Of a DNA stretch of 64,000 bases, positions 40,873-64,000 are shown in pieces. A program made the position numbers and the translations under genes. Source of the DNA: Sphingobium sp. (GTDB taxonomy: Bacteria; Pseudomonadota; Alphaproteobacteria; Sphingomonadales; Sphingomonadaceae); the NCBI GenBank assembly GCA_009360885.1, contig SPEL01000007.1:1-64000 (forward strand), in the 5' to 3' direction. Within the stretch, counting starts at the first letter, position 1. Every line of letters begins with the position of its first letter. A model generated the notes under the pieces. It was not told the DNA's origin and did no database searches. It saw only the letters and a list, made by a program, of their open reading frames with translations.

Positions 40873-42366
40873 TTATGCGTCTTCGTTCGCGTTTTCGCCT
40901 GCGGTGGCGCGGGCCTGTGCCAGCTTATCCGCAGGCACCCATGTGCCATGGACCTGCGCCCGCATCGGTACAGGCATGGGGACGCGGGCTATTGGCCCTT
41001 TTGCGATGTCGGCGGCCTCCACCACCCACAGCTCCGACGCGAAGCTATTCTCGCCCGTCTGCCTGTCTACCACAGCGAGCAACCAGCCTTCATGTCCTTC
41101 TTGCGTAGAGGGAACATGCACCGGCTCATTAATCGCCATATTCGGCCCCAGCGGCATCATATCAAGCCTGCCATTACCCGGTTCAATGCGAAACATGGCG
41201 TTAAACGCTATGCCCACCGGCCCACCGGGCAGCGGCGGGCCACCTTGCGGGTTCATCGAAAGATACCATGCCGCGCGATGGTTACGGCCCTGATCTTCAT
41301 CGCGCAGGCGCGGCATATCACCGGGAGGGCCAATCACGCGGGATTCAAAACCATCCCCTTCTTTGGCCATATCAAAGGTCCAGCGCGTCAGGCCGCCACC
41401 AATATCGCGCTGATCCCGCTGCACCCCACCAGCCTCACGCATGAAGCCAAAGGCATTGGTGTCACTGAGGCAGATATCCAGATGGACAAGATCACCATCT
41501 TCATAGGCGTTGACGAAGTGAAAGGCCGATACGCCCTTTGGTCCTTTGAACCAGCGCATTTCCTCAACCTTGCCATAGCGCGGCATGATGCCAACCCAGC
41601 TTTCCAGATCCTGCTGATGTGCCCAGTGCGGCCCGCCAGCCTTTAACCGGTCCAGATCAGCCGTGGTCGGAAAAATCGGGAATACCGCATAATGTTCGGT
41701 AATCGCGAAATCATGAATGGTAGAGCAATAAGGTTGCTGGAACCATTGTTCCGACACCAGAGTACCGTCCTTATCCGCAATGCAATAAGCGACATCGAGG
41801 CTCGCCAATCCACCAGCCTCATAGCCAAAGAAAAACATCTCCCCCGTTACCGGGTCAATGCGCGGATGGGCGGTGAAGGTTTCTGATTTCAGCGCGCCAT
41901 AATAATCCCACCGGCCAATGGTTTCGAGGGTGTCCGGGTTCACCTCATAGCCCAGACCATCTTCCTTGGTCATGAACAGCCGCCCGCCATGCCAGACCGG
42001 CGTGGTATTGGCGACGGTGCGGTCCTTGCCCTTTACGGATGGATCATCGGTGAAGGGGTTGCGATAGGCACCAAAGAGCGCGTGACGCGCTTCCTTCTCC
42101 AGCCGATAGCGCTCTGTTTCAACATAGCGAATGGCATAATCCACCACCCCATTATGGATCCTGAACTTCGCCACCATGCCATCGCCCGACAAAGCAATGT
42201 CATCGGCAAACATCGGTGCCTGCGCAGGGTCTGGCACCGCACGGAAAAAGGCCCCGTCAATTTCCGATGGTATCTCACCCACAACATCAAGATTGCGCGC
42301 AGACCACTCAATGCCAACCGGAGTGTTCAACCCCGTAAAGTGAACAGTCGATGGATATTTGCTCAT
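40873..42366 (-). CDS. Carotenoid oxygenase family dioxygenase (stilbene-cleaving type)
   Basis: 497 residues from an ATG at 42366 with AGGAGAAAGAG just upstream. All four iron-binding histidines of the family are present: about His167 (TAHPRIDP), His218 (CSTIHDFAIT), His283 (SAFHFVNAYE) and His473 (QVHGTWVP). The family cleaves C=C bonds with O2; bacterial members include carotenoid cleavers and lignostilbene dioxygenases of sphingomonads. The lack of carotenoid genes nearby and the presence of an NTF2 protein, receptor and MFS transporter favour a plant stilbene or similar phenylpropanoid substrate. The gene follows the NTF2 gene by 41 bp, forming an operon. Confidence 0.9.
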   Translation of the reverse strand: MSKYPSTVHFTGLNTPVGIEWSARNLDVVGEIPSEIDGAFFRAVPDPAQAPMFADDIALSGDGMVAKFRIHNGVVDYAIRYVETERYRLEKEARHALFGAYRNPFTDDPSVKGKDRTVANTTPVWHGGRLFMTKEDGLGYEVNPDTLETIGRWDYYGALKSETFTAHPRIDPVTGEMFFFGYEAGGLASLDVAYCIADKDGTLVSEQWFQQPYCSTIHDFAITEHYAVFPIFPTTADLDRLKAGGPHWAHQQDLESWVGIMPRYGKVEEMRWFKGPKGVSAFHFVNAYEDGDLVHLDICLSDTNAFGFMREAGGVQRDQRDIGGGLTRWTFDMAKEGDGFESRVIGPPGDMPRLRDEDQGRNHRAAWYLSMNPQGGPPLPGGPVGIAFNAMFRIEPGNGRLDMMPLGPNMAINEPVHVPSTQEGHEGWLLAVVDRQTGENSFASELWVVEAADIAKGPIARVPMPVPMRAQVHGTWVPADKLAQARATAGENANEDA

Positions 42367-42407
42367 CTCTTTCTCCTCTCCTTCCAAATATTATCATTTG
42401 AGGAAAG

Positions 42408-42926
42408 TTATTGGGGAATACGCTTCTTATTAGGGTCGAGCTTCAGCATGTCCGGGCTTTTCAGGGCTGGGTCCCAATGCTCGACAATTTTACCATTTTC
42501 GATACGGAAGAGGTCAAACCAACTGGTGTAATAGGTCTGGCCATTTTCATCCTGTTCAGACCGAACAAATGTGAACTGGACCATATCCCGCTCGGCTACG
42601 ATGGCAATGAGGGGCAGTTCAATTGTCGGGGCGATAGGGCGCTCTGGGCGACTGTTGCGGATGAAAGTTTCCAGCGCCTCAACCCCGCTGATGACATTCG
42701 GGTTGTGCTGAATATAATGCGGACCGATATAGTCCCGCACTTTGTCGGCGCGTCCGGCCTGTAAAACGGTGCGGTACATATCATAACATAGCCGTTTATT
42801 CGCGGCGATTGTCGGATCATCACTCAGTAGCAGAGAGGCCTGATCGGCAGCGATCATGGGCGGGGTTTGCCCTTCCGGAACTTTGGCTGCGGGAATCAGG
42901 GCGGTGGATGCGGTGTGGCTGTTCAT
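42408..42926 (-). CDS. SnoaL-like polyketide-cyclase family protein
   Basis: 172 residues from an ATG at 42926 (the frame opens at a TTG 12 bp earlier). After an N-terminal tail comes a SnoaL domain: NKRLCYDMYRTVLQAGRADKVRDYIGPHYIQHNP, VSGVEALETFI, YYTSWFDLFRIENGKIVEHWD, with the HWD motif typical of this branch. It is cytoplasmic. It lies upstream of the oxygenase gene on the same strand, and proteins of this kind often handle unstable cleavage products; that link is inference. Confidence 0.85.
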   Translation of the reverse strand: MNSHTASTALIPAAKVPEGQTPPMIAADQASLLLSDDPTIAANKRLCYDMYRTVLQAGRADKVRDYIGPHYIQHNPNVISGVEALETFIRNSRPERPIAPTIELPLIAIVAERDMVQFTFVRSEQDENGQTYYTSWFDLFRIENGKIVEHWDPALKSPDMLKLDPNKKRIPQ

Positions 42927-43028
42927 AATGAAGCGCAACTCCTGTTTAACCGGACTCAGGACGAGTAGGAAACATCATGATCGACGCAGATTGGACCTGC
43001 GCCGATCATCAGAATATAGGGGCATGGG

Positions 43029-43074
43029 TTGGGCAATCATGCGTGCCAGAGGGAGTGCATGCGCCATGCCCAAT
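43029..43074 (-). terminator. Imperfect hairpin after receptor gene
   Basis: TTGGGCAATC... and its partner ...GCCCAAT form an imperfect stem, with a GCATGC-rich middle, 26 bp past the receptor stop. No U-run follows, so this is a tentative 3' hairpin. Confidence 0.35.
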
Positions 43075-43099
43075 CGCTATTTTGCCATGAGCGGTGCAA

Positions 43100-45472
43100 T
43101 CAGAACCGCTTTGTTACAGTTAAAGCCCATTCCCGTGGACGCCCCGGCTGGCCCATTGCTGATCCCTGACCCAGCGTCTGATCGAAAAGCGTTTGCAGAT
43201 AATATTTATCCATAACGTTGGTAACTTCTGCGGATAGCTCCAGATCGCGGTCTGCATTGCGCCATGTGATGCGGCCATTGACCAGCGTATAAGAGGGCAC
43301 GTAACTCGTTGGATCATTACGTGCGGCCGCATATAAGCCAGACTGATAGGTTGCATCAATGCGAGGGGTGATGGATGAACCGTTGGCGAACTTTGCCTCA
43401 TATTGTGCGCCGATGGCCCATTTCCACTTGCTCATAAACGGGGCAACGTCAGTCAGGCGCACGCCGGTGGGGCCGCTGGCTGCTGCCGCGATCCTCTTAT
43501 ATTCAAAGTCAATATAGCTTGCCGATGCGTCAATCAGCAGGCCATCAACCGGGCGCAACGTGGTTTCGACTTCAAAGCCCTTTACATCTGCATCCCCGGC
43601 ATTGGCGGTCATTGAGCAAGGCGCGACCATGTTATTGGGTGTGAACTGCGGGCAGGATGTCAGGACGAGCTGAATGTCCTGATATTTATTCAAATAAGCC
43701 GACAGATTAAGACGCATTTTACGATCAAAGAGATCGCTCTTCATCCCAATCTCATATGCCTTGATGGATTCCGATCCAAAGGACCGCACCTGAGATGGGA
43801 AATAGGGACGAGGGTTAATGCCGCCACCCTTATAACCAGTCGAAAACTGGGCGTATGTCATGACATTAGGCGCCCATTCATACTGAAGATTCGCGCGATA
43901 ATCCCAGCGGGTTTCGCGGTAGAACCCGGTTACGCCGTCCAGCGAGCCGACAATTGGTTGACCAACAGACCCGTCAGCGAAGCGACGAGAGAAGGTGTAA
44001 TCTTTTTCCTCTCTGGTGCGGCGAATGCCACCGGTAATTGTCAGGCCGTCGGTCAGTTCCCAGGCAATATGGCCAAACATTGCAAGGGATTCCGATGGAA
44101 CTTCGTCACCGAGGCTGGCGAATTGCAGGCCAGCATATCGAATATCCTGAATATTGGCGAAGACGCTCTTCATATGGCTGTAGTAGCCGCCGATGGTGGT
44201 ATTAATGCGTCCATCCGCAAAAGAGCCATTAAGGCGCAGTTCCTGACTGAAAAAGTTCATATCTATATCAGTGGAGGAGCCGTTAACAGGCAGGGGAGAG
44301 AGGTCAGCATCTGCGGCATAGCTGCTTTGGAATTCGCGGTATCCGGTGATTGAAGTAAACTGAACCTCATCGCTCAGCTTAATATCCACCTGCCCGGAAA
44401 GGCCAAAGCCTTCATATTTAGAACGCAGAGGACGTGTTGATGCATAAGGGATACCGTTTGCAGGGTCTGCTGCCATTACGCCTGTTGAGTAATTACAATA
44501 ACGACCGCAGATAAACCGGGAATCGAAAGGCACGTTGAAATAAGGCCCACGCATTGCGCCTGTTGCGTTGTTATTCGCCGATAATAAAACAGACGCGGAT
44601 TGTGACCTGCTATCATAAACATAATCGCCTGATACCAGAACATCTATAACATCACTGGGATTATACCGTAACTGCCCGCGAATGGCCTGATAGTTGACGT
44701 CACCATTACGGTCAGTTCGGCAATCGCCTTGTAGTCGGGTTGCCGGGACGCCACCAACTGCAGGGTTATTCGCCGAGCCCTGCGGATTGACGCAGCCATA
44801 ATCATAGACATCGACATAGCCATCCTGTTTTTTGGAAACGACTGCTATGCGGGCATTGAGGTCGCCTGTCAGATGGAAGTCAAAGCTGCCGCGCATGTCA
44901 ATGCGATCGCGGCTGCCATAAGCGATCTGGACCATGCCGTCATTGCTGCCAACAGGACGCTTGGAATACAGCTTTACCGCGCCACCGATGGAATTTCTGC
45001 CAGCCAGAGTACCTTGCGGGCCGCGCAATATTTCAACCCGATCAAGATCGAGAAGATCAAATATCGCGCCTGTCAGCGATGGGTAATAAACATCATCGAC
45101 ATAAAAACCTACGCCGGGTTCTACCGCCGGGCTGGGGTCATATTGACCAACGCCGCGAATGGATGCGGCCATTGAGGGGCCGAAATTGGCATTATTAGGC
45201 TGTAGGTTGATACCCGGTGCCTGTGCGGCGACTTGTGAAATATTGGTCTGGCTGCGCGCGTTCATCATGTCGGCGGACATGGCGGTGATTGCGATCGGCG
45301 TATCCTGCAGATTTTGTGCGCGGAACTGAGCGGTCACGACAATGTCTTCGACGCCTGCGTGGCTGCTTTCGCTATTCTCAGTCTGCGCGAGGGCCACAGG
45401 TGCCAGCGAGCAAACCGCTATTGCGGATGTCATTGCGGCACAGCCCATCAAAGCTGATCTAAAATTCTTCAT
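43100..45472 (-). CDS. TonB-dependent receptor
   Basis: 790 residues: signal peptide ending APVALAQ; TonB-box-like VEDIVVTAQFRAQNLQDTPIAITAM; plug with VEILRGPQGTLAGRNSIGGAVKLYSKRP; barrel ending EWALTVTKRF. There is no STN domain. GGGAGAGAAACC precedes the ATG. It lies between the MFS transporter gene upstream and the NTF2/oxygenase pair downstream, all on the minus strand, so it likely imports the oxygenase substrate. Confidence 0.93.
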   Translation of the reverse strand: MKNFRSALMGCAAMTSAIAVCSLAPVALAQTENSESSHAGVEDIVVTAQFRAQNLQDTPIAITAMSADMMNARSQTNISQVAAQAPGINLQPNNANFGPSMAASIRGVGQYDPSPAVEPGVGFYVDDVYYPSLTGAIFDLLDLDRVEILRGPQGTLAGRNSIGGAVKLYSKRPVGSNDGMVQIAYGSRDRIDMRGSFDFHLTGDLNARIAVVSKKQDGYVDVYDYGCVNPQGSANNPAVGGVPATRLQGDCRTDRNGDVNYQAIRGQLRYNPSDVIDVLVSGDYVYDSRSQSASVLLSANNNATGAMRGPYFNVPFDSRFICGRYCNYSTGVMAADPANGIPYASTRPLRSKYEGFGLSGQVDIKLSDEVQFTSITGYREFQSSYAADADLSPLPVNGSSTDIDMNFFSQELRLNGSFADGRINTTIGGYYSHMKSVFANIQDIRYAGLQFASLGDEVPSESLAMFGHIAWELTDGLTITGGIRRTREEKDYTFSRRFADGSVGQPIVGSLDGVTGFYRETRWDYRANLQYEWAPNVMTYAQFSTGYKGGGINPRPYFPSQVRSFGSESIKAYEIGMKSDLFDRKMRLNLSAYLNKYQDIQLVLTSCPQFTPNNMVAPCSMTANAGDADVKGFEVETTLRPVDGLLIDASASYIDFEYKRIAAAASGPTGVRLTDVAPFMSKWKWAIGAQYEAKFANGSSITPRIDATYQSGLYAAARNDPTSYVPSYTLVNGRITWRNADRDLELSAEVTNVMDKYYLQTLFDQTLGQGSAMGQPGRPREWALTVTKRF

Positions 45473-45742: not shown

Positions 45743-47059
45743 TTATGACAACGCGGCTTTGCGGTAGCGCGCAGCCCAGATCATGTGCAGTCCGCTCCAT
45801 ATATAGGCGACACCGAAACAGGCGATGGCATAGCGTATGCCGGTCGCCGTGGCATTCGCACAGGCGGACCCGGTTATTTGCCCGGCAGCGCCTGCGCATT
45901 GGGTCGCAAAGTCAGATGTTCCATAGCTCCATGCCGAAATGACATCACTGATAAGTCCGGCAATGGGCGGGCCAAATCCCTGACCAATCAGATGCATAAT
46001 CAACAGGAAAATAGCAGATCCTGTGGCTCGGCTGCGGGAATCCAGCAACCCGTGCAGGGCGGCAATCGCCGGCCCCATCGCCATGTAAAAGAATAAAGAG
46101 CCCAGCAGCATGAGCGTGAAAGCCAGTTTCAGATCATTTTGCATCAGGCCGATAATGAAAAGCGGCGCACCAATAATGGCCCCAATGCCTGGTACGGCTA
46201 TCAACCAGCGGGGATCGCGTCGGGCCAGCCATTCGCTGCCATATCCTCCGGCAATTGTACCAATGGCCGATGCAATGCCAGTGAGCAGGCCAAAAATCAG
46301 GCCTGATTGCGCAACATCCAGCCCGTAGTTGCGAGAGAAAAAGGCGGGCAAGAATGTATTCATCCCGAAGGCGCCAAGGCTGATAAGGGAGACGCCCGCC
46401 AGCACATGGCGCATGGATTTGTCCCGGAATAATATCAGGAACACTTCTTTCATGCTGGCGGTTGGCTGGTGGTCGCTCACCGTCTGGCGGGCAGGTTCTT
46501 TCATCACGATAAGGGACAAAATCGCAACGATGATACCCAGACCGCCGATAACGTAAAAGGTGGCGCGCCACCCGTGGGTTGCAGCGATAGAGCCGCCGAT
46601 GAAAGAGCCGAGCAAAGCCGCCACGGGTACGCCCAGCATGAACAGGGATATAGCGGAAGCGCGTTTTTCCGGGCCATACATGTCAGAGATCATGGAATGG
46701 GGCGGGGCCTCCGTTCCGGCGCTTCCTGCGGCCATGCCAACGCGGGCAATCAGCATTTGCATAAACCCTGACGCTGCGCCGCATATAGCGGTGAAAGCAG
46801 AGGCAACTAGCAGAGAGCCTGCGGATACCCATTTGCGGGGGTAACGATCGGCCAGCCAGGCCAGAGGCAATGAGGCGAGGGTATTGACCACTGCAAAAGC
46901 AGTGCCGCCCAGCAGGCCGATTTCAAAATCGCTAATGCCAAAATCGGCCTTTATCTGCTGCGCCACCAGCGCAATGATGATACGGTCTATGAAACCAAAA
47001 CCATATATGGTGGTCAGCAGTAATAAGGTGGCCCTGCGGGTGGGTGGCGTCATTGTCAT
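45743..47059 (-). CDS. MFS transporter, Spinster-like
   Basis: 438 residues with 12 hydrophobic segments. It has the MFS motif PLAWLADRYPRKWV between helices 2 and 3 and the start YGFGFIDRIIIALVAQQIKADFGISDFEIGLLGGTAFAV, typical of the Spinster-like MFS subgroup common in sphingomonad aromatic-acid and steroid clusters. It would move an organic substrate over the inner membrane. The receptor gene follows after 270 bp on the same strand, and an AraC gene precedes it. Confidence 0.9.
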   Translation of the reverse strand: MTMTPPTRRATLLLLTTIYGFGFIDRIIIALVAQQIKADFGISDFEIGLLGGTAFAVVNTLASLPLAWLADRYPRKWVSAGSLLVASAFTAICGAASGFMQMLIARVGMAAGSAGTEAPPHSMISDMYGPEKRASAISLFMLGVPVAALLGSFIGGSIAATHGWRATFYVIGGLGIIVAILSLIVMKEPARQTVSDHQPTASMKEVFLILFRDKSMRHVLAGVSLISLGAFGMNTFLPAFFSRNYGLDVAQSGLIFGLLTGIASAIGTIAGGYGSEWLARRDPRWLIAVPGIGAIIGAPLFIIGLMQNDLKLAFTLMLLGSLFFYMAMGPAIAALHGLLDSRSRATGSAIFLLIMHLIGQGFGPPIAGLISDVISAWSYGTSDFATQCAGAAGQITGSACANATATGIRYAIACFGVAYIWSGLHMIWAARYRKAALS

Positions 47060-47263: not shown

Positions 47264-48187
47264 TCAATGGGGCAGATTGCTGTTGCGAAAATCCCGTGGC
47301 GGCGTGCCAAATCGTGCCTTGAAGGCGCGACTGAAATGCTGGCTGTCGCTAAAGCCCCAGCTATGGGCAATTTCTGTGATGGAACGCCCGGCCTGCGCCG
47401 GATCGAGCAATTGCTGACGACAATGTTCCAGACGCCTGTTCCATATCTGGCGACTGAGGGTGGCCGTGTCATCCGCAAATAATTTGTGCAATGTTCGTTT
47501 GGAATAACCCAACGCATCGGCAATATAGCTGATATCCAGATCAGGATTGGCCAGATTGCGTTCCACAAAATTCATGACGGCTATACGCCGCGCGCGCGAT
47601 GTTCGCGATCCCGCTGTAAGAGGATCTGCCTGCCAGGCCATGTTAATCATGTGAACCAGAACGTCACCCAGACGTGCGCGATCGCGGCGGCCTAATAGGG
47701 TGGCGGCGCTGATGGCGGCATTGGCGCTTTCGTGCAGCACATTACCCGCGCCCTGAAGAAACCCCTGAGGCAGGATGAGGGCGTGGCTGGTGCAATGCCA
47801 CCCGTTTATCCGTCTTTTGGGCAGGGACAAAGCGAGCTGTCGTGTTGTTCCCGCAGAATCCGTGCAATATGGCTGATTTTTGTCAATTGCACACCATTGA
47901 CCAGCGGTTAGCGTGATGGTTTTGCCGCATTGCTCCAGATGGCACTCTCCTTCTTCCTGAAACAGAAATTTGATGGAGCCATCATCATTACGGGTGGGGC
48001 TATCATTTTCCAGACGATGTTCGCCTAATATGACGGAACACAGGCGCAGTTCCCCCAGATCACAGCCGCGAATGGAGGCTTCTCTGTCATCGCCCAGTAC
48101 AGCATATGGTGCGCGGGTAACATTTTGCCATTGCATGCTGCGTTCGTGACGGTTTGCGGCTTTGGTCGCAAAACTTAAATAGTCCAT
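47264..48187 (-). CDS. AraC family transcriptional regulator
   Basis: 307 residues with GAGGG before the ATG. The N-terminal AraC-binding-like domain is followed by the two-HTH DNA-binding part: SYIADALGYSKRTLHKLFADDTATLSRQIWNRRLEHCRQQLLDP (first HTH at ISYIADALGYSKRTLHK) and SITEIAHSWGFSDSQHFSRAFKARFGTPPRDFR. It is divergent from the ALDH-DUF3237-GMC operon across a 254-bp gap, making that operon its main expected target. It could also control the MFS gene downstream. Confidence 0.9.
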   Translation of the reverse strand: MDYLSFATKAANRHERSMQWQNVTRAPYAVLGDDREASIRGCDLGELRLCSVILGEHRLENDSPTRNDDGSIKFLFQEEGECHLEQCGKTITLTAGQWCAIDKNQPYCTDSAGTTRQLALSLPKRRINGWHCTSHALILPQGFLQGAGNVLHESANAAISAATLLGRRDRARLGDVLVHMINMAWQADPLTAGSRTSRARRIAVMNFVERNLANPDLDISYIADALGYSKRTLHKLFADDTATLSRQIWNRRLEHCRQQLLDPAQAGRSITEIAHSWGFSDSQHFSRAFKARFGTPPRDFRNSNLPH

Positions 48188-48441: not shown

Positions 48442-49914
48442 ATGACACAATATGACAAGCTGCTCTCTGCGCATGCCGGAGAGGTTTTCATCGATGGGGA
48501 ATGGCGGCAGGCGAAAAGCGGCAAGGCCATAGATGTCATCAACCCCTCTGACGGTGAGTGTATTGGCGAAGTGGCTGCCTCTGGCGCTGATGATGTAAAT
48601 GATGCGGTTGAGGCCGCAGCAGCGGCAATGCGCAGGGCGTCTTCCGGTGGCTGGACCCCGGCAATGCGGCAGGATGCACTGCTTTCTTTGGCGCGGGCGA
48701 TTGATGATAATGCCGAGGAACTGGCTCAGCTCGAAATGATTGATGCTGGTAAGCCAATCCGTAATGTACGTTTTCTTGATGTGCCGCAATCAGCCGCTGG
48801 CCTGCGCTATTTTGCGGGCTGGGCGACTAAATTATCGGGCGAGACTATGGAGTTGTCTGTGCCGGGTGACTGGCACGCCTGCACCGTGCGAGAGCCTGTT
48901 GGCGTTGTCGGGCAGATTATCCCATGGAATTACCCTCTAATGGGGGCCGCCATGAAAATTGGCCCGGCATTGGCGGCAGGCTGCGCAGTGATATTGAAGC
49001 CAGCGGAACAAACCTCTCTCTCGGCGTTACGGTTAGCGGAGTTGATCCGGCAATGCGGCTTTCCGGCTGGCATGGTCAATATTCTGCCCGGCTATGGGGC
49101 CGATGCCGGGGCCGCACTTGTGGCGCATCCCGATGTCGCAAAAATTGCGTTCACCGGCTCAACCGCGACAGGGCGGGTCATATTGCGCGATGCTTCTGCG
49201 CATTTGAAACGAGTGACGGTTGAACTAGGCGGGAAATCACCTGTCATCGTCATGCCTGACGCCAATATTGAGGAAGCCGCCCGTGCAATCGCCATGGGTA
49301 TTTTCTTCAATTCCGGGCAGACTTGTTCTGCCGGTTCACGCTTGCTGGTTCATGCATCAGTCGTGAAGGATGTGGTCGCACGGGTCGCTGAAATAGCATC
49401 CTCCATGGCGATGGGCGCGCCTTCCGATCCGGCAACGGCGTTGGGGCCAGTGATTTCACAGGCGCAGCAAGACCGAATTTTTGCTTATGTGGACCGAGCG
49501 GTGGCCGAAGGAGCGCGCTGCGTAGTAGGGGGGCAGCGTCCATCTGGCGCAGGCTTCTTTGTTCCCCCGACTGTTCTGACGGATATGCATGCCGATATGG
49601 AAGCCGTCCGGGAGGAGATTTTCGGGCCTGTGCTATCCGTACTGACATTCGATACGACGGATCTCGACGCCATTGCCGATCTTGCCAATGATAATGATTA
49701 TGGTCTGGCCGCTTATGTCTGGACCAATAGTGTCAGCCATGGGCTGGGGCTGGTAAAACGATTGCGGGCGGGGACTGTGCGCGTCAACACCAGTGGCGGG
49801 AATGATTTCGTATTGCCCGCAGGCGGAATGAAACAATCGGGCAATGGTCGTGAAAATGGCCGGGCCGGTGTGGAAGCCTATACAGAATTAAAGGCCGTAA
49901 CCATTGCTTTGTGA
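48442..49914 (+). CDS. NAD(P)-dependent aldehyde dehydrogenase
   Basis: 490 residues. Glu261 (VELGGKSP) and Cys295 (NSGQTCSAGSR) are the catalytic pair, with PWNYPLM and FTGSTATG for cofactor binding. The pattern is that of broad-range aldehyde dehydrogenases near betaine-aldehyde and phenylacetaldehyde types. It is the first gene of an operon with two DUF3237 genes and a GMC oxidase, so it should oxidise the aldehyde that the oxidase makes. Confidence 0.9.
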   Translation: MTQYDKLLSAHAGEVFIDGEWRQAKSGKAIDVINPSDGECIGEVAASGADDVNDAVEAAAAAMRRASSGGWTPAMRQDALLSLARAIDDNAEELAQLEMIDAGKPIRNVRFLDVPQSAAGLRYFAGWATKLSGETMELSVPGDWHACTVREPVGVVGQIIPWNYPLMGAAMKIGPALAAGCAVILKPAEQTSLSALRLAELIRQCGFPAGMVNILPGYGADAGAALVAHPDVAKIAFTGSTATGRVILRDASAHLKRVTVELGGKSPVIVMPDANIEEAARAIAMGIFFNSGQTCSAGSRLLVHASVVKDVVARVAEIASSMAMGAPSDPATALGPVISQAQQDRIFAYVDRAVAEGARCVVGGQRPSGAGFFVPPTVLTDMHADMEAVREEIFGPVLSVLTFDTTDLDAIADLANDNDYGLAAYVWTNSVSHGLGLVKRLRAGTVRVNTSGGNDFVLPAGGMKQSGNGRENGRAGVEAYTELKAVTIAL

Positions 49915-49964
49915 TGTCTGGCACCAGACCTTCGGGCGCAACTGAGGGGGGGGAGGAAAGAAAA

Positions 49965-50399
49965 ATGAACGAGCAGGATCAGGATATGCCCTCTCCGGGA
50001 TTGGAAGAGGCGTTTCGGTTAAATTTGACCTTTGCCGATATGATGCAGGTTGGGAAACTGGCAACCGGCGGACGACGCGCTGTTGCACCGGTAACCGGTG
50101 GGCAACTGAATGGCGAGAGGCTCAGCGCTAATGTGCTGAGCGGCAGTGAAACCCGGCTTACCCGCCTTGATGGCGTCACGACGATAGAGGCAGTTTATCT
50201 GATTGCAGCGGAAAATGCCTCTCTCATTCGCATCATTGGCACTGGCATGGATGTGCGTGAAGGGGGCTATGATGGTGTGCGGATGAGCATAGTTTTCGAG
50301 GTGGATGACGCATCGCCCCATAGCTGGTTGGCGACGCGCGCCTTCATTGCGGAACGGGCAAGAGGTTCCGACACGCTCATCATTGTTCAGATTATATAA
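49965..50399 (+). CDS. DUF3237 family protein (first of tandem pair)
   Basis: 144 residues from an ATG at 49965 with GGGAGGAAAG just upstream; the frame opens earlier within the ALDH end. It matches DUF3237: FRLNLTFADMMQVGKLATGGRRAVAPVTGGQLNGERLSANV near the start, and a beta-rich remainder. The family has no settled activity and forms a small beta-barrel. It lacks the C-terminal FEAPAGPYDWLNRSIFIGVG block of the next gene, so the two have diverged. Tandem placement between ALDH and GMC genes suggests a binding or isomerising role in the same pathway. Confidence 0.75.
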   Translation: MNEQDQDMPSPGLEEAFRLNLTFADMMQVGKLATGGRRAVAPVTGGQLNGERLSANVLSGSETRLTRLDGVTTIEAVYLIAAENASLIRIIGTGMDVREGGYDGVRMSIVFEVDDASPHSWLATRAFIAERARGSDTLIIVQII

Positions 50400-56176: not shown

Positions 56177-56441
56177 CCTCATCCCCGGCTTATGATGTTC
56201 CCTAATCCTTTTGCGTAGGGGCATTGCCTGTGGGCCAGTATAAGCCGGAACCGGCTATTCCGACGAGTGCAGGGAATGGAAAAATTCAAGCAATAGCGAT
56301 AATGTTTTTATTATCACTACCCCGTCATTTTCGACCTTCTCAACCTGTAGCCAATAGCGCAGCTTATGCCTGCTGCCGAGTGGAAAAACTTCGAAACAGA
56401 AGATGCATCGAGCAGTTTTGGAACCCGGGAGGGAGAGGAAT

Positions 56442-58847
56442 ATGAACGAAATTCAGGAAATTAACGCCCCGGTTATGTCTGAGGGCGGGGCTATTGTGCG
56501 CAGCAAAAAATGGCGTTTCACTGGTGCGGCGGTGATGGCCATATCATTGGCGGCCATCAGCCCGACTCATGCAGAGGAGCGGGGTAGCGAAATAGGCCGG
56601 GTGGCCGATGGCGATATCATTGTGACCGCACAGCGACGCGCTCAGTCGCTCAAGGATGTTCCAGTTGCGGTATCGGTTGTGTCCGGTGAAATGCTGGATC
56701 AGGCCAATATCAAGTCGCTGGAGGATATGGCGGCCCGTATGCCGTCCGTTCGTGTGACATCCGGCACTATCACCAACTCTATTGCCATTCGTGGTGTTGC
56801 CTCTGGTGCCAATGGTGGTTTTGAACAGTCTGTAGCGACATTTGTGGATGGGGTTTATCGCAACCGGTCCCGCTCTACCCGTGGTGCTATGTTTGATATT
56901 GAACGGGTGGAAGTGCTGAAAGGCCCGCAAACGACATTCTTTGGGGCCAATGCTATTGCAGGAGCGCTCAATATCTCCACCCGTAAACCGGGGGATGATT
57001 TCGATTACAACGCCAGCGCCTTTTATACTCCGGCGACCGGCGAATATAATCTTGAAGCAGGTGTTGATGTCCCCGCAGGAGAAACTTTTGCTGCGCGTGT
57101 CGCTGCCCGTGTATCCGGCAGCGAGGGCTATGTTCATAATGATGTAACGGGTGAAGACGGCCCGCATGACCGCAGCGTGCAAGGTCGGTTGTCCTTGCGG
57201 TGGGAACCATCTGCCTCCTTCCGCTCGGACCTGCGCGTAGAAGGAAGCCGTTCGCGAACCCAAAACGCAATGCCCTTGCAGTTGTTAAATTGTGCGCCGG
57301 ATGCCGCGTTCACTATGGCCCCGACTAATACGTGCCGGGGGTATCTCAACCGCAGTGGCGGGGTGGTTGATGATCGGCTGGATTATCACACCAGCACAGG
57401 GAAGAATTTTTCTAATTTCGATTATGTAGAAACGGCATGGTCCAACAGCCTTGATCTGGGCGGAGGGACTCTGAATTCCATCACCGGCTATCAATGGCAG
57501 GATTTCACGACGCAGGGTGGTTCCATGCCCTTTCCTATGCCAGCCGTTGGTGGCGGGGATGTAGGGTTTCCGACCTATCAGAACGAAAAATACCGACAGT
57601 TCAGTCAGGAAATACGTTTTCAATCTGAAACCGGGGGTGCCTTTGAATATATGGTCGGCGCTTATGCTGCATGGGGTAAGCTCGATTTTCAGGGACTGGT
57701 AGGGTTCCGCTTCGCGCCATTTGGTGGTTTTAACCCTACAGGAACAACCAATGCCGCCACGCCCATTTCCAGCGAGATTGGAGTGGACCAGAAAGACCGC
57801 ACGCTCTCCACCTTCGCAGCGGCCACCATTCGTCCGGTTACAGGAATGCGGATTAATCTGGGTGCGCGCTATTCCAACGTGCGTAAAACGGTGACCCGTT
57901 TTGCGTCCATGGGATCAGCCGACCCATATGTTACGCCGGGTTCTTACGTTGTATTCGATCCGGCAACGCAGACGATTATTGCGGGGATATTGGGGGCTAA
58001 TATTGCGCCCTTTGTTAATCCGCGCCGCACAGATGATAAATTCATGCCTTCGGTCAGTGTGCAATATGATGTCACCCCTGATGTCATGGTATATGCAAGC
58101 TATGCCAATGGTTTTAAAGCGGGTGGCTATTCGACCGGGGCCAATAATAATGAATTTGGCCCGGAAAGTGTGGATGCTTATGAAATTGGCTTGAAAGGCC
58201 GTTTTCTTGATCGTCGCCTGACATTCGATCTGGCATTATATCGCAGTGATTATACCGATTTGCAGGAAACCGCACTGCAAATATTAACATCAGGCGCGGT
58301 TACATCGGTTGTCGGAAACGCGGCTGGCTCGCGCGCGCAAGGTGTGGAACTATCGACCAGTTTTCGTTTTGCGCCCTGGTTCACTTTGGCAGCGGATGTT
58401 GCCTACACCGATTCCAAATATACCGATTATACCGATGCGGCATGTACGATTTACGGGCTGTATCTCTCCTCCACCTGCGTTCAGGATATGTCGGGCAAGC
58501 GGCGCAGCTATGCACCGAAATGGAGCGGTAATGTCAGCGCCCATATCGTTGCACCACTGGGGGGTGGCAATCGCCTGACGATTGATCCGCTGATGTATTT
58601 CAGTTCGGCAACCTATTTGTCCGCCACGGCTGATCCACTGCTGGAACAGAAGAGCTATACCAAATATGATCTGCGTGTTGGTATCGGTCCGGACACTGGC
58701 CGTTGGGAACTGGCGATCGTCGGTAAAAATCTGAGCAACCGCAAAACCGCAATGTTCCGTCAGGCAGTCGTTGGCGCGCCGGGCAGTGTCGGTGCGCTGA
58801 TTGATCCGCCGCGTACTGTCGGTATTCAGTTCACAATCAGAAAATAA
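56442..58847 (+). CDS. TonB-dependent receptor
   Basis: 801 residues from an ATG at 56442 with GGGAGGGAGAGG upstream; the frame opens 13 codons earlier. After a signal segment comes DGDIIVTAQRRAQSLKDVPVAVSVVSGEM, a plug with VERVEVLKGPQTTFFGANAIAGALNISTRKP, and a barrel ending PRTVGIQFTIRK. There is no STN domain. It starts the operon with the PQQ dehydrogenase only 23 bp downstream, so it probably imports the alcohol that enzyme oxidises. Confidence 0.92.
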   Translation: MNEIQEINAPVMSEGGAIVRSKKWRFTGAAVMAISLAAISPTHAEERGSEIGRVADGDIIVTAQRRAQSLKDVPVAVSVVSGEMLDQANIKSLEDMAARMPSVRVTSGTITNSIAIRGVASGANGGFEQSVATFVDGVYRNRSRSTRGAMFDIERVEVLKGPQTTFFGANAIAGALNISTRKPGDDFDYNASAFYTPATGEYNLEAGVDVPAGETFAARVAARVSGSEGYVHNDVTGEDGPHDRSVQGRLSLRWEPSASFRSDLRVEGSRSRTQNAMPLQLLNCAPDAAFTMAPTNTCRGYLNRSGGVVDDRLDYHTSTGKNFSNFDYVETAWSNSLDLGGGTLNSITGYQWQDFTTQGGSMPFPMPAVGGGDVGFPTYQNEKYRQFSQEIRFQSETGGAFEYMVGAYAAWGKLDFQGLVGFRFAPFGGFNPTGTTNAATPISSEIGVDQKDRTLSTFAAATIRPVTGMRINLGARYSNVRKTVTRFASMGSADPYVTPGSYVVFDPATQTIIAGILGANIAPFVNPRRTDDKFMPSVSVQYDVTPDVMVYASYANGFKAGGYSTGANNNEFGPESVDAYEIGLKGRFLDRRLTFDLALYRSDYTDLQETALQILTSGAVTSVVGNAAGSRAQGVELSTSFRFAPWFTLAADVAYTDSKYTDYTDAACTIYGLYLSSTCVQDMSGKRRSYAPKWSGNVSAHIVAPLGGGNRLTIDPLMYFSSATYLSATADPLLEQKSYTKYDLRVGIGPDTGRWELAIVGKNLSNRKTAMFRQAVVGAPGSVGALIDPPRTVGIQFTIRK

Positions 58848-58870
58848 CAATGAATAATGGGGATGAGAGG

Positions 58871-60991
58871 ATGAAGGTCGCTGTTAAATCATGGTTATTG
58901 GCCGGGTTTGCGGGTATGCTTTCTGCATGCGGTGGTAATGGTGATACCGCAGGACAAAAAGAAACCGGGGTTGTTCAATCCGCTGACTGGCCGACGCATG
59001 GGCGGACACCAGAGGCACAGCGTTTCAGTCCTCTCTCCTCAATTAACCTGTCGAATATCAATCGGCTTGGTCTGGCGTGGTCAGTCGATCTGGAGACCAA
59101 TGCCGGGCAGGAGGCTACCCCCATTATGCGGGATGGCATCCTCTATATCGCCAGCGCCTATAATATTGTCCGGGCGGTGGACGCGAGAAGCGGTAAAACC
59201 CTCTGGGTCTATGACCCGGACGTTCGGGAGGCATCGGCCCGGTCATGTTGCGGGCCGGTTTCCCGCGGGGTAGCAGTCGAAAATGGCCGCGTTTTTGTCG
59301 GCGCGCTGGATGGTCGCCTGATTGCGCTGGATGCAAAAACCGGGAAGCCCGTCTGGGAGGTCCAGACGCTGGATCAGGACCATCCGCCAGCCGTGAATTA
59401 TACCATCACGGGCGCACCGCGCATTGTTAAGGGCAAGGTGATAATTGGCAATGGCGGCGCGGAATTTGGCGCGCGCGGCTATGTCAGTGCTTATGACATG
59501 GCGACAGGCAAACGGGTCTGGCGTTTTTATACTGTGCCGGGAAAACCGGGAACGCAGGATGGAGAGATTTCCGATCAGCCGCTCAAGGATATTGCGGCCT
59601 CAACCTGGCATGGCGAATATTGGCGCTGGGGCGGCGGGGGCACCGTTTGGGATTCTATTGAATATGATCCTGAGCTGGACCTGCTTTATATCGGGGTAGG
59701 CAATGGTAGCCCAACCAATCATGGCATCCGTAGCGCGGGGAAGGGCGACAATCTTTTCCTTTCCTCTATCGTCGCGTTGAAGCCGGATACCGGGAAATAT
59801 GTCTGGCATTATCAGGAAACCCCCGGCGAGGCGTGGGATTATACCGCGACACAGCCCATTATCTTTGCCGATATTGAAATGAATGGGGCAAAGCATAAGG
59901 TACTGATGCAGGCGCCGAAAAACGGGTTTTTCTATATATTAGACCGTGCCACGGGTAAATTACTGGCGGCGGACCCAATAGCCCGCACCACATGGGCCAG
60001 CCATATTGATCTTAAAACCGGGCGACCTGTCGAAAACCCGGAGGCCCGCTATTATCTGACAAACCAGCCTGCTCTGGTATTCCCCAGTTCCGGCGGGGCG
60101 CATAACTGGCAACCCATGTCCTATAGCCCCGAAACCGGGCTGGTTTATATTCCGGTGCAGGATATGGGCCTTCCCTTCGCGGGAGAGGCAGATATTGCCC
60201 GTCAGGCGGGGGTGTATAATAGCGGCACGATCATGACAGGCGGCGCGGCCATGAATGATGCCGACCTCAAAGAAGCCATGAAGCAGATGAAGGGGTATCT
60301 GCTGGCATGGGACCCGGTGCGGCGCAAAGTCGCGTGGCGCAAAGAACTGGCGGCAACCTTTAATGGCGGTGTGCTGGCAACTGGCGGTGGCATTGTTTTT
60401 CAGGGCAATGGTGCCCGGAAACTTGCGGCTTACAATGCCAAAGATGGCACCTTGCTTTGGTCATTTGATGCCCAGACCGGAATTGTTGCCCCGCCTATCA
60501 CCTATGCCATAGATGGCGTTCAATATATCGCCGTGATGGCCGGATGGGGTGGTGCATGGCCGATGCTGGGCGGACAATTTGCCGAGCAACCGGCCAATGG
60601 TGTCGGGAATAACAGACTGCTGGTTTTTAAGCTGGATGGCAAGGCCCGCCTGCCTGCCCCGGAAGGAAGCGCGTATTTGCCGTTTGATCCTCCGGCGGAC
60701 ACAGCGCCTGCTGCCGTGGTTGCGCGGGGGGATAGCCTCTATGGTCAATATTGCCTCCGTTGTCATGGTATCGGAGCGGTTAGCGCCAGTATGGTCCCGG
60801 ATTTGCGACGCAGCGGTTATCTTGCTGACAGCAACTTTGACCAGATCGTTGTTGATGGGGCGCTGTCGTCCATGGGGATGCCCTCCTTCAAAGGGGTGCT
60901 GGACGCCAGAGATGTCGCTGCCATCCGTGCTTATCTCATCCATCGCGCCAATCGTGATAAGGCAATGATGTTGCCTTCATCACAGCGTTGA
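58871..60991 (+). CDS. PQQ-dependent alcohol dehydrogenase with cytochrome c domain (quinohaemoprotein)
   Basis: 706 residues from an ATG at 58871 with GATGAGAGG upstream. The signal peptide ends in a lipobox (MLSAC), so it is a periplasmic lipoprotein. The eight-bladed PQQ propeller carries the vicinal disulfide Cys126-Cys127 (ARSCCGPVSRG) found in quinoprotein alcohol dehydrogenases, plus propeller repeats such as LDAKTGKPVWEVQT and YDMATGKRVWRFYT. The C-terminal cytochrome c has CLRCH at about 628 and the Met ligand region MGMPSF. Electrons pass from PQQ to haem and on to a carrier such as the small cytochrome c. Substrate: a primary or secondary alcohol taken up by the receptor. Confidence 0.93.
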   Translation: MKVAVKSWLLAGFAGMLSACGGNGDTAGQKETGVVQSADWPTHGRTPEAQRFSPLSSINLSNINRLGLAWSVDLETNAGQEATPIMRDGILYIASAYNIVRAVDARSGKTLWVYDPDVREASARSCCGPVSRGVAVENGRVFVGALDGRLIALDAKTGKPVWEVQTLDQDHPPAVNYTITGAPRIVKGKVIIGNGGAEFGARGYVSAYDMATGKRVWRFYTVPGKPGTQDGEISDQPLKDIAASTWHGEYWRWGGGGTVWDSIEYDPELDLLYIGVGNGSPTNHGIRSAGKGDNLFLSSIVALKPDTGKYVWHYQETPGEAWDYTATQPIIFADIEMNGAKHKVLMQAPKNGFFYILDRATGKLLAADPIARTTWASHIDLKTGRPVENPEARYYLTNQPALVFPSSGGAHNWQPMSYSPETGLVYIPVQDMGLPFAGEADIARQAGVYNSGTIMTGGAAMNDADLKEAMKQMKGYLLAWDPVRRKVAWRKELAATFNGGVLATGGGIVFQGNGARKLAAYNAKDGTLLWSFDAQTGIVAPPITYAIDGVQYIAVMAGWGGAWPMLGGQFAEQPANGVGNNRLLVFKLDGKARLPAPEGSAYLPFDPPADTAPAAVVARGDSLYGQYCLRCHGIGAVSASMVPDLRRSGYLADSNFDQIVVDGALSSMGMPSFKGVLDARDVAAIRAYLIHRANRDKAMMLPSSQR

Positions 60992-61025
60992 CTCTGCTTT
61001 AATAGAAATGAAGGAAGGAATATTC

Positions 61026-61643
61026 GTGAATATCGAAACCGAAATTCAGGAACTGAAAGAAAGGCTGACGCTGGCGGAGCGTCGCGCTCAGGCAGCGGAG
61101 GATTATGTAGCAATATCCAATTTGCAGCGCACTTATGGATATTATGTCGATAAATCCCAATGGGATCAGGTAGCGGATTTATTCGCGCGGGATGGCGTGC
61201 TGGAAATTAACGCGCGCGGTAAATTTTTCGGGCAGGACCGTATCCGCGAATATATGCACCATTTTGGTCCGGCAGAACCCGGCGTGCTGATGAACCATAT
61301 TCAGATACAGCCGGTCATCAATATTGCGCCGGATGGCATGACGGCGAGTGGTCGTTTCCGTGCGTTGATGCAGGTTGGCCGCATGGGCGGGGAAGGACTA
61401 TGGGGGGACGCGATCTATGAAAATCGCTACGTCAAGGAAGATGGTGTATGGAAAATTGCATCTCTTCGTGCCTATCAGTCATTCTATGTCCCTTATGATA
61501 AGGGCTGGGCGCAGGAAGCCTTGCCATTAATGACGGATTTTGACGATTTCCCACCTGATGAACCAACAGAGGCCTATCCTGTTTATCCAGAGATATTTGT
61601 GCCTCCCTATCATTATGCAAATCCGGTAAGCGGGCGAAAATAA
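61026..61643 (+). CDS. SnoaL-like / NTF2-fold protein (paralogue of 26197 gene)
   Basis: 205 residues from a GTG at 61026 with GGAAGGA upstream; an ATG at 61008 has no ribosome site. A short coiled coil (ETEIQELKERLTLAERRAQA) is followed by the SnoaL domain (SNLQRTYGYYVDKSQWDQVADLFARDGVLEI...YENRYVKEDGVWKIASLRAYQ). The order and motifs are the same as in the NTF2-fold protein at 26197, so both are paralogues in different catabolic clusters. It sits in the receptor/PQQ-dehydrogenase operon, where it probably acts on a cytoplasmic intermediate. The reaction is unknown. Confidence 0.85.
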   Translation: MNIETEIQELKERLTLAERRAQAAEDYVAISNLQRTYGYYVDKSQWDQVADLFARDGVLEINARGKFFGQDRIREYMHHFGPAEPGVLMNHIQIQPVINIAPDGMTASGRFRALMQVGRMGGEGLWGDAIYENRYVKEDGVWKIASLRAYQSFYVPYDKGWAQEALPLMTDFDDFPPDEPTEAYPVYPEIFVPPYHYANPVSGRK

Positions 61644-61666: not shown

Positions 61667-62551
61667 GTGCTGACCATCCGGCAAATGATGATTTTTTCGG
61701 CAGTGGTCCGGCATGGTAGTTTCCGGGCCTGCGCTGAAAATATTGGCGTTTCTCAGGTGGTCGTCAGTGCCCATATTCGTGAACTGGAAAGCAGGCTTGG
61801 GGTGGCGTTGTTTAACCGCCATCCCGGGCATGCCGCAGAACTGACAGATCAGGGGCAGCATGCTTTTAACCGGATTTCGGCCATACTTACCGACATTGCT
61901 GACCTGCGACAGGAACTGGCGGGGGAGCATGAACAGCGCCAGATAAAGATCACAACCTATAGCTTTATCATGCTGAAACTACAGGACAGGCTGGATGCAT
62001 TTCGTGATATGCGTCCGCATGTAAACCTTCATATAGATCTTGATCCGCCAGATAATATGAAGCTGGCTTTGCAGGTAAACCGCGGTGACGTGGACATCGG
62101 CTGCTTTTTCTCAATGGCCGATAATGAAGTGCCGGAAAGCACAATATTTAGCGAAGAAAAACTGGCCATTTATGTGGGGCCTGACCATCCACTGGCCAAT
62201 GTCATGAATGTCACGGGGGATCAATTGCAGGCCCATCCCGCGATTATGCTGACCAGCACCAACCCGCAGCGCCGATTGACGGACAGGGCGCTGGGGCTGA
62301 TCGGTGCCAGTCCGGCGAATATATTAATGGAAACCGACGCACTGGCATTGATGCTCAGTAACGTAAGAAAGAACAGGGCATGGATATGCCTGTTTCAGGA
62401 TTCTGTCGATGATATGTTGCCCGGATTAAAGCGGGTGAATCTGGCGAAAGATATTCCGGCAGTGCAGGTGCGCATGCTGATGCGTTCCTCCGCGCGGCAT
62501 GATGCAAATTTACGGGCCCTGCAAAGAGCAATCAGTGGCGCTAAGCGCTGA
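61667..62551 (+). CDS. LysR family transcriptional regulator
   Basis: 294 residues starting at a GTG (61667) with GAAAGGGGCGG upstream. The LysR winged helix is at LTIRQMMIFSAVVRHGSFRACAENIGVSQVVVSAHIRELESRLGV. The C-terminal part is the effector-binding fold. Its place inside the receptor/dehydrogenase/sulfatase gene set, on the same strand, suggests it regulates this set. LysR genes are more often divergent from targets, so this arrangement is slightly unusual. Confidence 0.9.
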   Translation: MLTIRQMMIFSAVVRHGSFRACAENIGVSQVVVSAHIRELESRLGVALFNRHPGHAAELTDQGQHAFNRISAILTDIADLRQELAGEHEQRQIKITTYSFIMLKLQDRLDAFRDMRPHVNLHIDLDPPDNMKLALQVNRGDVDIGCFFSMADNEVPESTIFSEEKLAIYVGPDHPLANVMNVTGDQLQAHPAIMLTSTNPQRRLTDRALGLIGASPANILMETDALALMLSNVRKNRAWICLFQDSVDDMLPGLKRVNLAKDIPAVQVRMLMRSSARHDANLRALQRAISGAKR

Positions 62552-62670
62552 CCAGAAAAAGGCGCTGTACACCCATATGGTGGCGCACAGGGACAAGCGG
62601 GGCAAATAGTCCATTGATAGTGTTGCAGCCCGCAAAACGACGTCAAAAAAATAGCAGAGGATAATTCATA

Positions 62671-64000
62671 ATGCGACAGGGAAATTCGGGTCAGACGTGG
62701 TGTATAATTCGTTTGCGGCTTATGAAAAATGTCGGGCCGGCTGTTGGGCTTGGCTTGATGGCCCTGGCGGGTAATCAGGCGTTGGCGCAGGCCGGTGCCC
62801 CCGCAGCATCAGCCCAAAAGCCTATTCGGACGCAGGCTGACGGCGGGTGGCTCAATTACCCTAACTCCCCCAAAGCGCCAAAGGGTGCGCCCAATGTCAT
62901 CCTTGTGCTGACTGATGATGTCGGTTTTGGCGCAACCAGTACTTTTGGTGGCCCCATACCGACGCCTTATTTTGACATGTTGGCCAAAAAAGGCCTGAAA
63001 TATACTCAGTTTCATACCACATCCATGTGCTCACCCACGCGGGCATCGCTGTTGACCGGGCGTAACCATCATGCGGTTGGCGCTGGCTCTATCAGTAACG
63101 TATCTGTCGATGAGCCGGGCTATACGTCCGTTATCCCGGATAGCGCCGCAACATTGGGCCGCGTTCTGCGTGACAATGGCTATGATACCGCATGGTTCGG
63201 CAAAAACCATAACACGCCCGACTGGGAATTGGGACCAATGGGGCCGTTTAAGCATTGGCCCAGCGGCATGGGTTTCAATTATTTTTACGGGTTTAATGCT
63301 GCCGGAACGGATCAGGTGAATCCGCCAATATTGGAAAATCATATTGGTATCCGCCGCGATCCCACAGACCCCAATTATTTCTTTGAACGTGACATGGCCG
63401 ACCGCATGCTGGCGTGGATGAGTGCGCAGCATGGGTCAAATCCCGACAAGCCATTTTTTGCTTATTATGCGCCCGGCGCGATGCATGGCCCGCAACAGGC
63501 CCCCAAAGAATGGATTGAGAAATTTAAGGGTAAGTTCGATATGGGGTGGGATGCAATCCGCCCCGAAATATTGGCGCGGCAAAAGAAGCTGGGTGTTGTA
63601 CCGTCCAACACCAAAATGGCCCCTGCGTTGCCTGATGTGCCGGAGTGGAGTAGCCTGTCTGCCGACCAGAAGAAATTATATGCGCGCCTGATGGAAGTCG
63701 CCGCTGCCCAGTTGGCCTATACGGATTATCAATTTGGGCGCATAATTGAACGTCTGAAGGAAACGGGGCAATTCGATAATACTCTGATTATCTTTATTCA
63801 GGGGGATAACGGCGCGGCTCTGCACAATATGCGGGGTAGCAACAATATCTATTCTCAGTTTGCCGGTATCGAGCCAACAGATGAAGATTTGATGAAGGAT
63901 TATGACCGGCTCGGCAGTGAGAATGTCCTGAGTAATTACCCCGTAGGCTGGGGCTATGCCACCAACACGCCATTCCCATGGGGAAAGACCGTGGCGTCCA
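62671..64000 (+). CDS. Exported type I arylsulfatase (partial, runs off right edge)
   Basis: 443 codons are seen; the C-terminus lies outside the window. Signal peptide (VGLGLMALAGNQALAQA), Asp82/Asp83 (VILVLTDDVGFG), and the formylglycine site CSPTR (Cys120) followed by GRNHHAVGAG. It is closely related to the sulfatase at 52620 (same PNVI, TDDVGF, FGGPIPTP, CSPTRA and FGKNHNTP landmarks) but is not a copy. The ATG at 62671 has GAGG 10 nt before it; an ATG at 62722 is the alternative. It should act in the periplasm on a sulfate ester and may share the substrate class of its paralogue. Confidence 0.9.
   Translation, partial: MRQGNSGQTWCIIRLRLMKNVGPAVGLGLMALAGNQALAQAGAPAASAQKPIRTQADGGWLNYPNSPKAPKGAPNVILVLTDDVGFGATSTFGGPIPTPYFDMLAKKGLKYTQFHTTSMCSPTRASLLTGRNHHAVGAGSISNVSVDEPGYTSVIPDSAATLGRVLRDNGYDTAWFGKNHNTPDWELGPMGPFKHWPSGMGFNYFYGFNAAGTDQVNPPILENHIGIRRDPTDPNYFFERDMADRMLAWMSAQHGSNPDKPFFAYYAPGAMHGPQQAPKEWIEKFKGKFDMGWDAIRPEILARQKKLGVVPSNTKMAPALPDVPEWSSLSADQKKLYARLMEVAAAQLAYTDYQFGRIIERLKETGQFDNTLIIFIQGDNGAALHNMRGSNNIYSQFAGIEPTDEDLMKDYDRLGSENVLSNYPVGWGYATNTPFPWGKTVAS

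Follow-up and report, generated by a model that had tools for sequence, protein, structure and literature searches.

A conserved sphingomonad gene cluster joins sulfatases to a candidate stilbene route for sulfated phenolic dimers

The stretch analysed here (the window, 64,000 nucleotides, positions 1 to 64,000 of contig SPEL01000007.1) comes from a Sphingobium sp. and carries near its right end a cluster of 17 genes, listed in the table, that spans 40.9 kb to 66.2 kb of its 67,699-base contig (C6), the last part lying past the window end. The host genome amounts to 2.93 Mb and is 79.6% complete. Family calls are from Pfam scans and curated cut-offs from NCBIfam/TIGR models. We propose, at a probability of slightly under one half, that the locus works as a single catabolic unit, whose substrate would be a sulfated phenolic that resembles a lignan or neolignan and yields a stilbene. 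That the genes form a conserved unit is near certain; that the substrate is sulfated we rate as somewhat better than even, and an aromatic, stilbene-forming route as about even. The identity of the substrate and the order of the steps are what we infer from these genes.

Genes of the cluster, with coordinates in the window unless stated otherwise
Gene product	Coordinates	Strand	Family evidence
Lignostilbene-alpha,beta-dioxygenase (LSD), NOV2/LSD5 type, RPE65 fold family	40873..42387	-	NF053780 896.6 bits (cut-off 650)
SnoaL/NTF2-like protein	42408..42938	-	PF07366 37.8 bits
TonB-dependent receptor 1	43100..45472	-	PF00593, PF07715; no STN
Major facilitator superfamily (MFS) transporter 1	45743..47059	-	PF07690; relatives 54-78% identical in other core loci
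AraC regulator	47264..48187	-	PF12833; nearest model FeaR, 131.9 bits (cut-off 199; below)
Aldehyde dehydrogenase (ALDH)	48442..49914	+	PF00171 553 bits; nearest StyD, 533.9 (cut-off 850; below)
DUF3237 protein a (divergent)	49911..50399	+	PF11578 58.9 bits (cut-off 24)
DUF3237 protein b, PhcF/PhcG/PinX family	50412..50867	+	PF11578 126.3 bits (cut-off 24)
GMC oxidoreductase	50864..52489	+	PF00732, PF05199; best PDB 9lq0, 8b7s
Sulfatase A	52620..54911	-	PF00884 203.6 bits; CSPTR at 96-100; N-terminal hydrophobic segment
MFS transporter 2	54929..56224	-	PF07690; nearest aromatic acid/H+ symport family TIGR00895, 200.3 (cut-off 418.6; below)
TonB-dependent receptor 2	56403..58847	+	PF00593, PF07715; no STN
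Type II quinohaemoprotein alcohol dehydrogenase (pyrroloquinoline quinone, PQQ, plus cytochrome c domain)	58850..60991	+	TIGR03075 606.9 (cut-off 480)
LdpA-like SnoaL_4/NTF2 lyase	61008..61643	+	PF13577; LdpA structures 8abt/8abv, E ~1e-27
LysR regulator	61667..62551	+	PF00126, PF03466
Sulfatase B	62671..65007 of contig C6 (5' part, to 64000, in window)	+	PF00884
Formylglycine-generating enzyme (FGE)	65223-66152 of contig C6, beyond window		After sulfatase B

The initial annotation of this region named two formylglycine-type (FGly) sulfatases, a PQQ dehydrogenase, a GMC oxidase, an ALDH, two receptors without STN, two MFS transporters and AraC and LysR regulators, and Pfam finds each of these families where it had placed them; it overlooked the LSD, SnoaL, LdpA-like and two DUF3237 genes within the same region. 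The receptors carry Plug and barrel domains only, with no STN domain at E<=0.001 in Pfam. Gene spacing suggests four transcription units, namely ALDH-DUF3237a-DUF3237b-GMC (4 bp overlap, 12 bp gap, 4 bp overlap), receptor 2-PQQ enzyme-LdpA-like lyase-LysR (gaps of 2, 16 and 23 bp), MFS2-sulfatase A (17 bp gap) and SnoaL-LSD (20 bp gap). The AraC gene faces the ALDH operon.

The evidence for a conserved unit comes from other genomes. Relatives were found via the LdpA-like protein, sulfatase B and DUF3237b, and their genes were named by comparison with the 17 cluster proteins; in a locus fetched around a query gene, that gene is present by construction. With ALDH-DUF3237a-DUF3237b-GMC defined as the core, seven loci hold the core next to a sulfatase at least 55% identical to sulfatase B: the window and those of S. 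xenophagum NBRC 107872, the metagenome-assembled genome (MAG) SCN18_30_10_14_R1_P_65_26 (SCN18), Novosphingobium sp. SG707, N. ovatum FSY-8, Altericroceibacterium endophyticum LMG 29518 (counted once, G269 being the same genome as G155) and G542, all sphingomonads. AraC and MFS1 accompany the core in all seven, and the PQQ enzyme and the LdpA-like gene each in six, both being missing from A. endophyticum within 40 kb. The FGE gene occurs in three (window, SCN18 and G542), and gene order varies. Such recurrence of the set as a block across genera exceeds what chance would give. Inside the SCN18 (L038 9665-10651) and S. xenophagum (L040 8749-9735) clusters there is also a 328-residue metallo-beta-lactamase-fold protein that is outside the 17 cluster genes.

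Six further loci (G346, G386, G224, G391, G087 and G041, the first three from one genus) hold the core with AraC and MFS1, and the approximately 20 kb taken around them contain no sulfatase at 50% identity or above; three of these keep the PQQ enzyme and five the LdpA-like gene. Such loci, which retain the same ALDH-DUF3237a-DUF3237b-GMC-AraC-MFS1 set, are what one would expect had desulfation been added as a front end. Two loci depart from the pattern: marine MAG locus L056 carries two sulfatases, a PQQ enzyme and FGE, but its 22 kb contain no core, and in L057 the only cluster gene is a 56% identical sulfatase.

Linkage was scored in the best 80 of at least 440 confirmed sulfatase loci. Where the sulfatase reached 60% identity to sulfatase B, all six loci held other cluster genes (the PQQ enzyme in 5/6; GMC, DUF3237b and ALDH within 10 kb in 4/6); below 60% identity none of 74 did, save for FGE alone in five. 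The initial annotation had joined sulfatases and dehydrogenases in one scheme, to be abandoned if the two never co-occurred in other genomes, and had called for a neighbourhood search in other sphingomonads. These counts, and the six other genomes with sulfatase plus core, bear it out: the two form one conserved unit. In a family sample of 397 genomes, own genome included and assumed to be the same for both searches, seven genomes held DUF3237b and 59 a relative of sulfatase B at E<=1e-150. With the own genome excluded, DUF3237b occurs in 4/8 genomes with a relative at E<=1e-250, a limit picked after the list was seen, against 6/396 overall (p 1e-6), and in 5/58 at the preset E<=1e-150 (p 3e-4); these p values ignore relatedness.

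The dioxygenase exceeds the NCBIfam NOV2 equivalog cut-off and matches LSD4 in the PDB at E 1.3e-109. By the residue list of PMC8191317 (papers are cited throughout for what their accessible portions state), the iron ligands H167, H218, H284 and H476 are present, as are the acidic partners E135 and E418, with Asp for E353. Tyr101 and Lys134, which bind the substrate 4-hydroxyl in LSD4, are conserved, and Ser283 is replaced by Phe, as found in LSD5 and LSD6, both of which favour lignostilbene over DCA-S; piceatannol is a very good substrate for NOV2 (PMC8191317). The LSD4 query (486 letters) is matched at 100% identity in G080, presumably strain SYK-6, and in G537, and G080 also holds a 78% identical relative of the window LSD.

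A second copy of the dioxygenase lies on host contig C3. Window positions 40652-42400 (1.75 kb, the whole LSD gene) are 99.66% identical to that copy (L047 14864-16616), and the SnoaL gene beside it is only 82% identical in DNA to the window SnoaL gene, which suggests that LSD alone was recently duplicated or gene-converted between the two. At the protein level SnoaL has an 87% copy on contig C3 and a 74% copy in G080, both in stretches with the same type of LSD. The contig C3 region (L047, 131900-151800) encodes GMC, DUF3237, SnoaL, LdpA-like, MFS and TonB receptor proteins with the same LSD and gives no sulfatase match; a similar locus is present in G080 and a partial one in G044. On N. capsulatum plasmid NZ_CP140001.1 (L237) several esterase/hydrolase genes, in place of sulfatases, flank a DUF3237-LSD-TonB receptor-NTF2 cluster, which is perhaps an ester-unmasking counterpart.

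Both DUF3237 proteins exceed the Pfam cut-off, and DUF3237b shares 40% identity with the DUF3237 protein encoded next to LSD4 in G080. The DUF3237b model (pLDDT 90.8) resembles bacterial DUF3237 structures and matches 6jjs at E 8e-7, a Penicillium herquei enzyme that we take to be PhnH, going by a reference title in PMC8704240. PhnH adds a phenol to an alkene (PMC8704240) and PhcF/PhcG open a ring (PMC11323797), so that the former reaction would be roughly the reverse of the latter. A PadC-like fold was considered and rejected, since no phenolic acid decarboxylase is among the best 50 of 656 matches. PinX has a DUF3237 domain and is 42% and 38% identical to the decarboxylases PhcG and PhcF, and the GMC enzyme PinY, which precedes PinX, is 39% identical to PhcC (PMC12607616). 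Three of the five DUF3237 loci in the host genome, the window included, have an LSD within 10 kb (chance 0.001). The LdpA-like lyase, compared with the LdpA structures (8ABV being LdpA; PMC11476836), keeps the histidine where chains 8abt and 8abu differ, the sole active-site position compared. Host contig C4 holds a closer LdpA relative near another LSD (E 1e-47, against ~1e-27 for the window lyase), and the window lyase is therefore a paralogue.

The sulfatases belong to the FGly (S1) type: each has one copy of the CSPTR motif, conforming to C-x-P-x-R, with catalytic residues in place and an FGE nearby. Eleven positions, placed via the alignment with Pseudomonas aeruginosa arylsulfatase PAS, we take to be catalytic. 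In sulfatase A, ten of these are identical in all 26 aligned relatives, and 24 of the 26 keep the motif proline; sulfatase B and its two closest relatives show no variation at any of the 11. The only cysteine of sulfatase A is the FGly one, and the FGE carries two cysteines in KGGSHLCAPNYC, presumably those of its active site. The sulfatase A model has 7all as its top fold match, level with PAS. The likeness to PAS (1hdh; E 3e-65 by sequence) covers fold and FGly residues; the window enzymes differ in length (763-778 residues with a signal-like N-terminus, against 536 for PAS), and the sulfatase A model has an additional C-terminal beta domain.

The PQQ enzyme matches PDB 1kv9 at E 1.4e-218, with the PQQ propeller, vicinal cysteine pair and C-terminal CxxCH haem motif all found, and its N-terminus is lipobox-like (LSAC). 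The ALDH shows its Cys and Glu motifs. Hydrophobic N-terminal stretches in the sulfatases, receptors and PQQ enzyme read by eye as signal sequences, and no signal-like N-terminus was recognised by eye in the ALDH, DUF3237, LdpA-like and LSD proteins. The location of the GMC enzyme is uncertain, because its hydrophobic N-terminus reads as the FAD-binding motif and PhcC and PhcD are reportedly membrane-associated, as the title of a cited paper has it. The periplasmic desulfation and oxidation proposed in the initial annotation thus look correct as far as sulfatases and PQQ enzyme are concerned and stay uncertain for the GMC enzyme. Its end point, a sulfated alcohol or phenol turned into an acid, is too narrow, leaving out the LSD, the DUF3237 pair and the LdpA-like lyase, genes suggestive of a phenolic dimer being split at a C-C bond via a stilbene.

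On the proposed route, the TonB receptors would carry the sulfated compound into the periplasm, as a TonB receptor takes up the lignin-derived dimer DDVA in SYK-6 (PMC6874591). Sulfatases A and B, matured by the neighbouring FGE, would strip the aryl sulfate and free the para-phenol, a chemistry expected from family and intact residues, with the substrate conjectural. The quinohaemoprotein, clear in family, would oxidise one side-chain CH2OH of a presumed substrate, and MFS carriers would import the product. GMC and ALDH would then turn a CH2OH into a carboxylate, which DUF3237b, perhaps with DUF3237a, would decarboxylate to form the double bond; alternatively the LdpA-like lyase would release formaldehyde, both routes leading to a 4-hydroxystilbene. 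The NOV2/LSD5-type dioxygenase would cleave this into two aromatic aldehydes, oxidisable by the ALDH. Desulfation would have to come first, because the dioxygenase binds a free 4-hydroxyl and the proposed quinone-methide chemistry of the lyase type needs one, which would make a periplasmic sulfatase a plausible gatekeeper. Excreted polyphenol sulfates are one possible source of such a substrate. Plants may be another, since several of the papers listed for sulfated lignans, neolignans and stilbenes concern the halophyte genus Frankenia. Six of seven reviewed dimer pathways run via an LSD-cleavable stilbene (PMC12997858), and the window supplies a candidate for every later step of such a route; the new element relative to known dimer pathways is that desulfation would come first.

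Several observations weigh against this proposal. A window-type LSD is present in just three of the seven sulfatase-plus-core loci (window, SCN18 and G542); S. xenophagum and A. endophyticum have relatives elsewhere in the genome (81% and 72% identical), and the two Novosphingobium genomes have relatives only 55-56% identical. In the window LSD the stacking Phe59, described for LSD4 and its relatives (PMC8191317), is Leu, so the Phe59/Tyr101/Lys134 trio is incomplete; Leu also occupies this position in the SCN18 copy and in the 78% relative from G080. DUF3237a is only 23-28% identical to four other aligned DUF3237 proteins, and the DUF3237 and GMC proteins are likened to PhcC/D, PhcF/G, PinX and PinY by domain and description. 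The AraC, ALDH and MFS assignments lie under curated cut-offs, and 7all comes from a study of a mucin-glycan sulfatase, so that aryl specificity of sulfatase A is only predicted. The core is present in only 4 of 13 places around LdpA-like relatives (G062, G058, G087 and G041) and lacking in nine. Of the eight genomes with the closest relatives of sulfatase B (E<=1e-250), four, whose relatives are 52-57% identical, are without the DUF3237b core. Two of the other four, G346 and G386, carry both genes apart from each other, on different contigs or at a distance of 1.7 Mb. Both findings speak against exclusivity. PqqE exceeded its cut-off in none of seven genomes (the incomplete host, S. xenophagum, SCN18, SG707, N. 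ovatum, A. endophyticum and the marine MAG), and the same model was positive in 14 of 76 class members; the PQQ enzyme thus probably depends on an imported cofactor.

A simpler account, in which a sulfated alcohol or phenol monomer is desulfated and oxidised to an acid with the LSD, DUF3237 and NTF2 genes acting on something else or in side reactions, would suit the scarcity of the LSD, and the nearest models of the ALDH and the AraC regulator, StyD and FeaR (both below cut-off), fit aryl-acetaldehyde chemistry. Yet both DUF3237 genes sit between ALDH and GMC in 13/13 core loci, 11 of which also contain the LdpA-like gene, some of these loci having been found through those very genes, and plain alcohol oxidation requires neither DUF3237 nor an LdpA-like lyase. 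The presence of these genes and the LSD is why we keep this account merely as a rival and consider it unlikely. Less likely still is that the sulfatases scavenge sulfur and are mere neighbours of an aromatic catabolic cluster: 6 of 13 core loci lack an adjacent sulfatase and the family is common without the cluster (74 of the 80 fetched loci), but the close sulfatase group stays tied to the cluster across genera despite shuffling, as both the locus counts and the family sample (with its post hoc limit and its disregard of relatedness) indicate, and an FGE gene lies in three of the seven sulfatase-plus-core loci. This conserved linkage disfavours scavenging alone. We think it very improbable that the cluster serves a surfactant or polymer (an alkyl or alkyl-ether sulfate, PEG-like), with a sulfatase, GMC and PQQ enzymes acting on a terminal alcohol, and an ALDH; the GMC, ALDH, TonB receptor and AraC set may resemble the peg operon, but the closest matches of the sulfatases are arylsulfatase PAS and 7all, and the LSD, DUF3237 and LdpA-like genes are not known to take part in such a route.

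Beyond the cluster, an open reading frame with a RepC N-terminal domain (PF03428) at 67046-67699, the end of contig C6, suggests a repABC-type replicon or integrated element nearby. None of 108 plasmid records (E<=1e-50) and none of 43 (E<=1e-5) held a match to the sulfatase or DUF3237b that reached 60% identity. A recent horizontal island was considered and set aside, the GC content (0.52-0.57 across the window) giving no sign of one. Window positions 21199-27905, with AraC, a TonB receptor, a second LdpA-like SnoaL_4 protein and a short-chain dehydrogenase/reductase, are possibly a second aromatic catabolic locus.

More broadly, the cluster could be part of a sphingomonad pathway, dedicated and shared widely, that handles sulfated lignans, neolignans or stilbenoids and uses periplasmic sulfatases to free the phenol needed by a lyase or decarboxylase and a NOV2-type LSD; we offer this extension tentatively and regard it as rather doubtful. 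Were a conserved sulfatase front end real, sulfated plant phenolics would be a carbon source for sphingomonads, the orphan LSD5/NOV2-type dioxygenases would gain a substrate class, the physiological roles of the SYK-6 LSD homologues having been called undetermined (PMC8191317), and a step of the organosulfur cycle would be joined to aromatic-dimer breakdown. The proposal is testable in S. xenophagum NBRC 107872, a culture-collection strain that carries the cluster.

The families are ordinary and their combination, unexpected and conserved, is a variant of the sphingomonad aromatic-dimer pathways, which in the papers cited here were worked out on unsulfated model compounds. A sulfatase paired with lignostilbene was not found in the searchable literature, and among the matches listed for arylsulfatase, sphingomonad, aromatic sulfate, TonB and PQQ the cluster's gene set is undescribed. 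With the Phc pathway for dehydrodiconiferyl alcohol (beta-5) in Sphingobium sp. SYK-6 the locus would share GMC oxidation of a side-chain alcohol (PMC12997858), decarboxylation to a stilbene by PhcF/PhcG, whose homologue PinX has DUF3237, and LSD cleavage (PMC8191317, PMC11323797). The accessible Phc descriptions mention no sulfatase, whereas the window has sulfatases, a PQQ enzyme and an LdpA-like lyase, and its LSD is of the NOV2/LSD5 type (Phe at 283), LSD5 lysates favouring lignostilbene over DCA-S (PMC8191317). The Pin pathway for pinoresinol (beta-beta) in Novosphingobium rhizosphaerae LY has in common the GMC enzyme PinY, the DUF3237 decarboxylase PinX and the LSD relative PinU (PMC12607616); its PinZ reductase and PinVW flavocytochrome were not recognised by Pfam among the 17 cluster genes, which include sulfatases, FGE and a PQQ dehydrogenase instead. 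Finally, the LdpA/PcfL gamma-formaldehyde lyases (beta-1, beta-5) of N. aromaticivorans likewise combine an NTF2-fold lyase with an LSD (PMC11323797), and the window system differs in that its lyase is the paralogue, the closer LdpA relative sitting on host contig C4.

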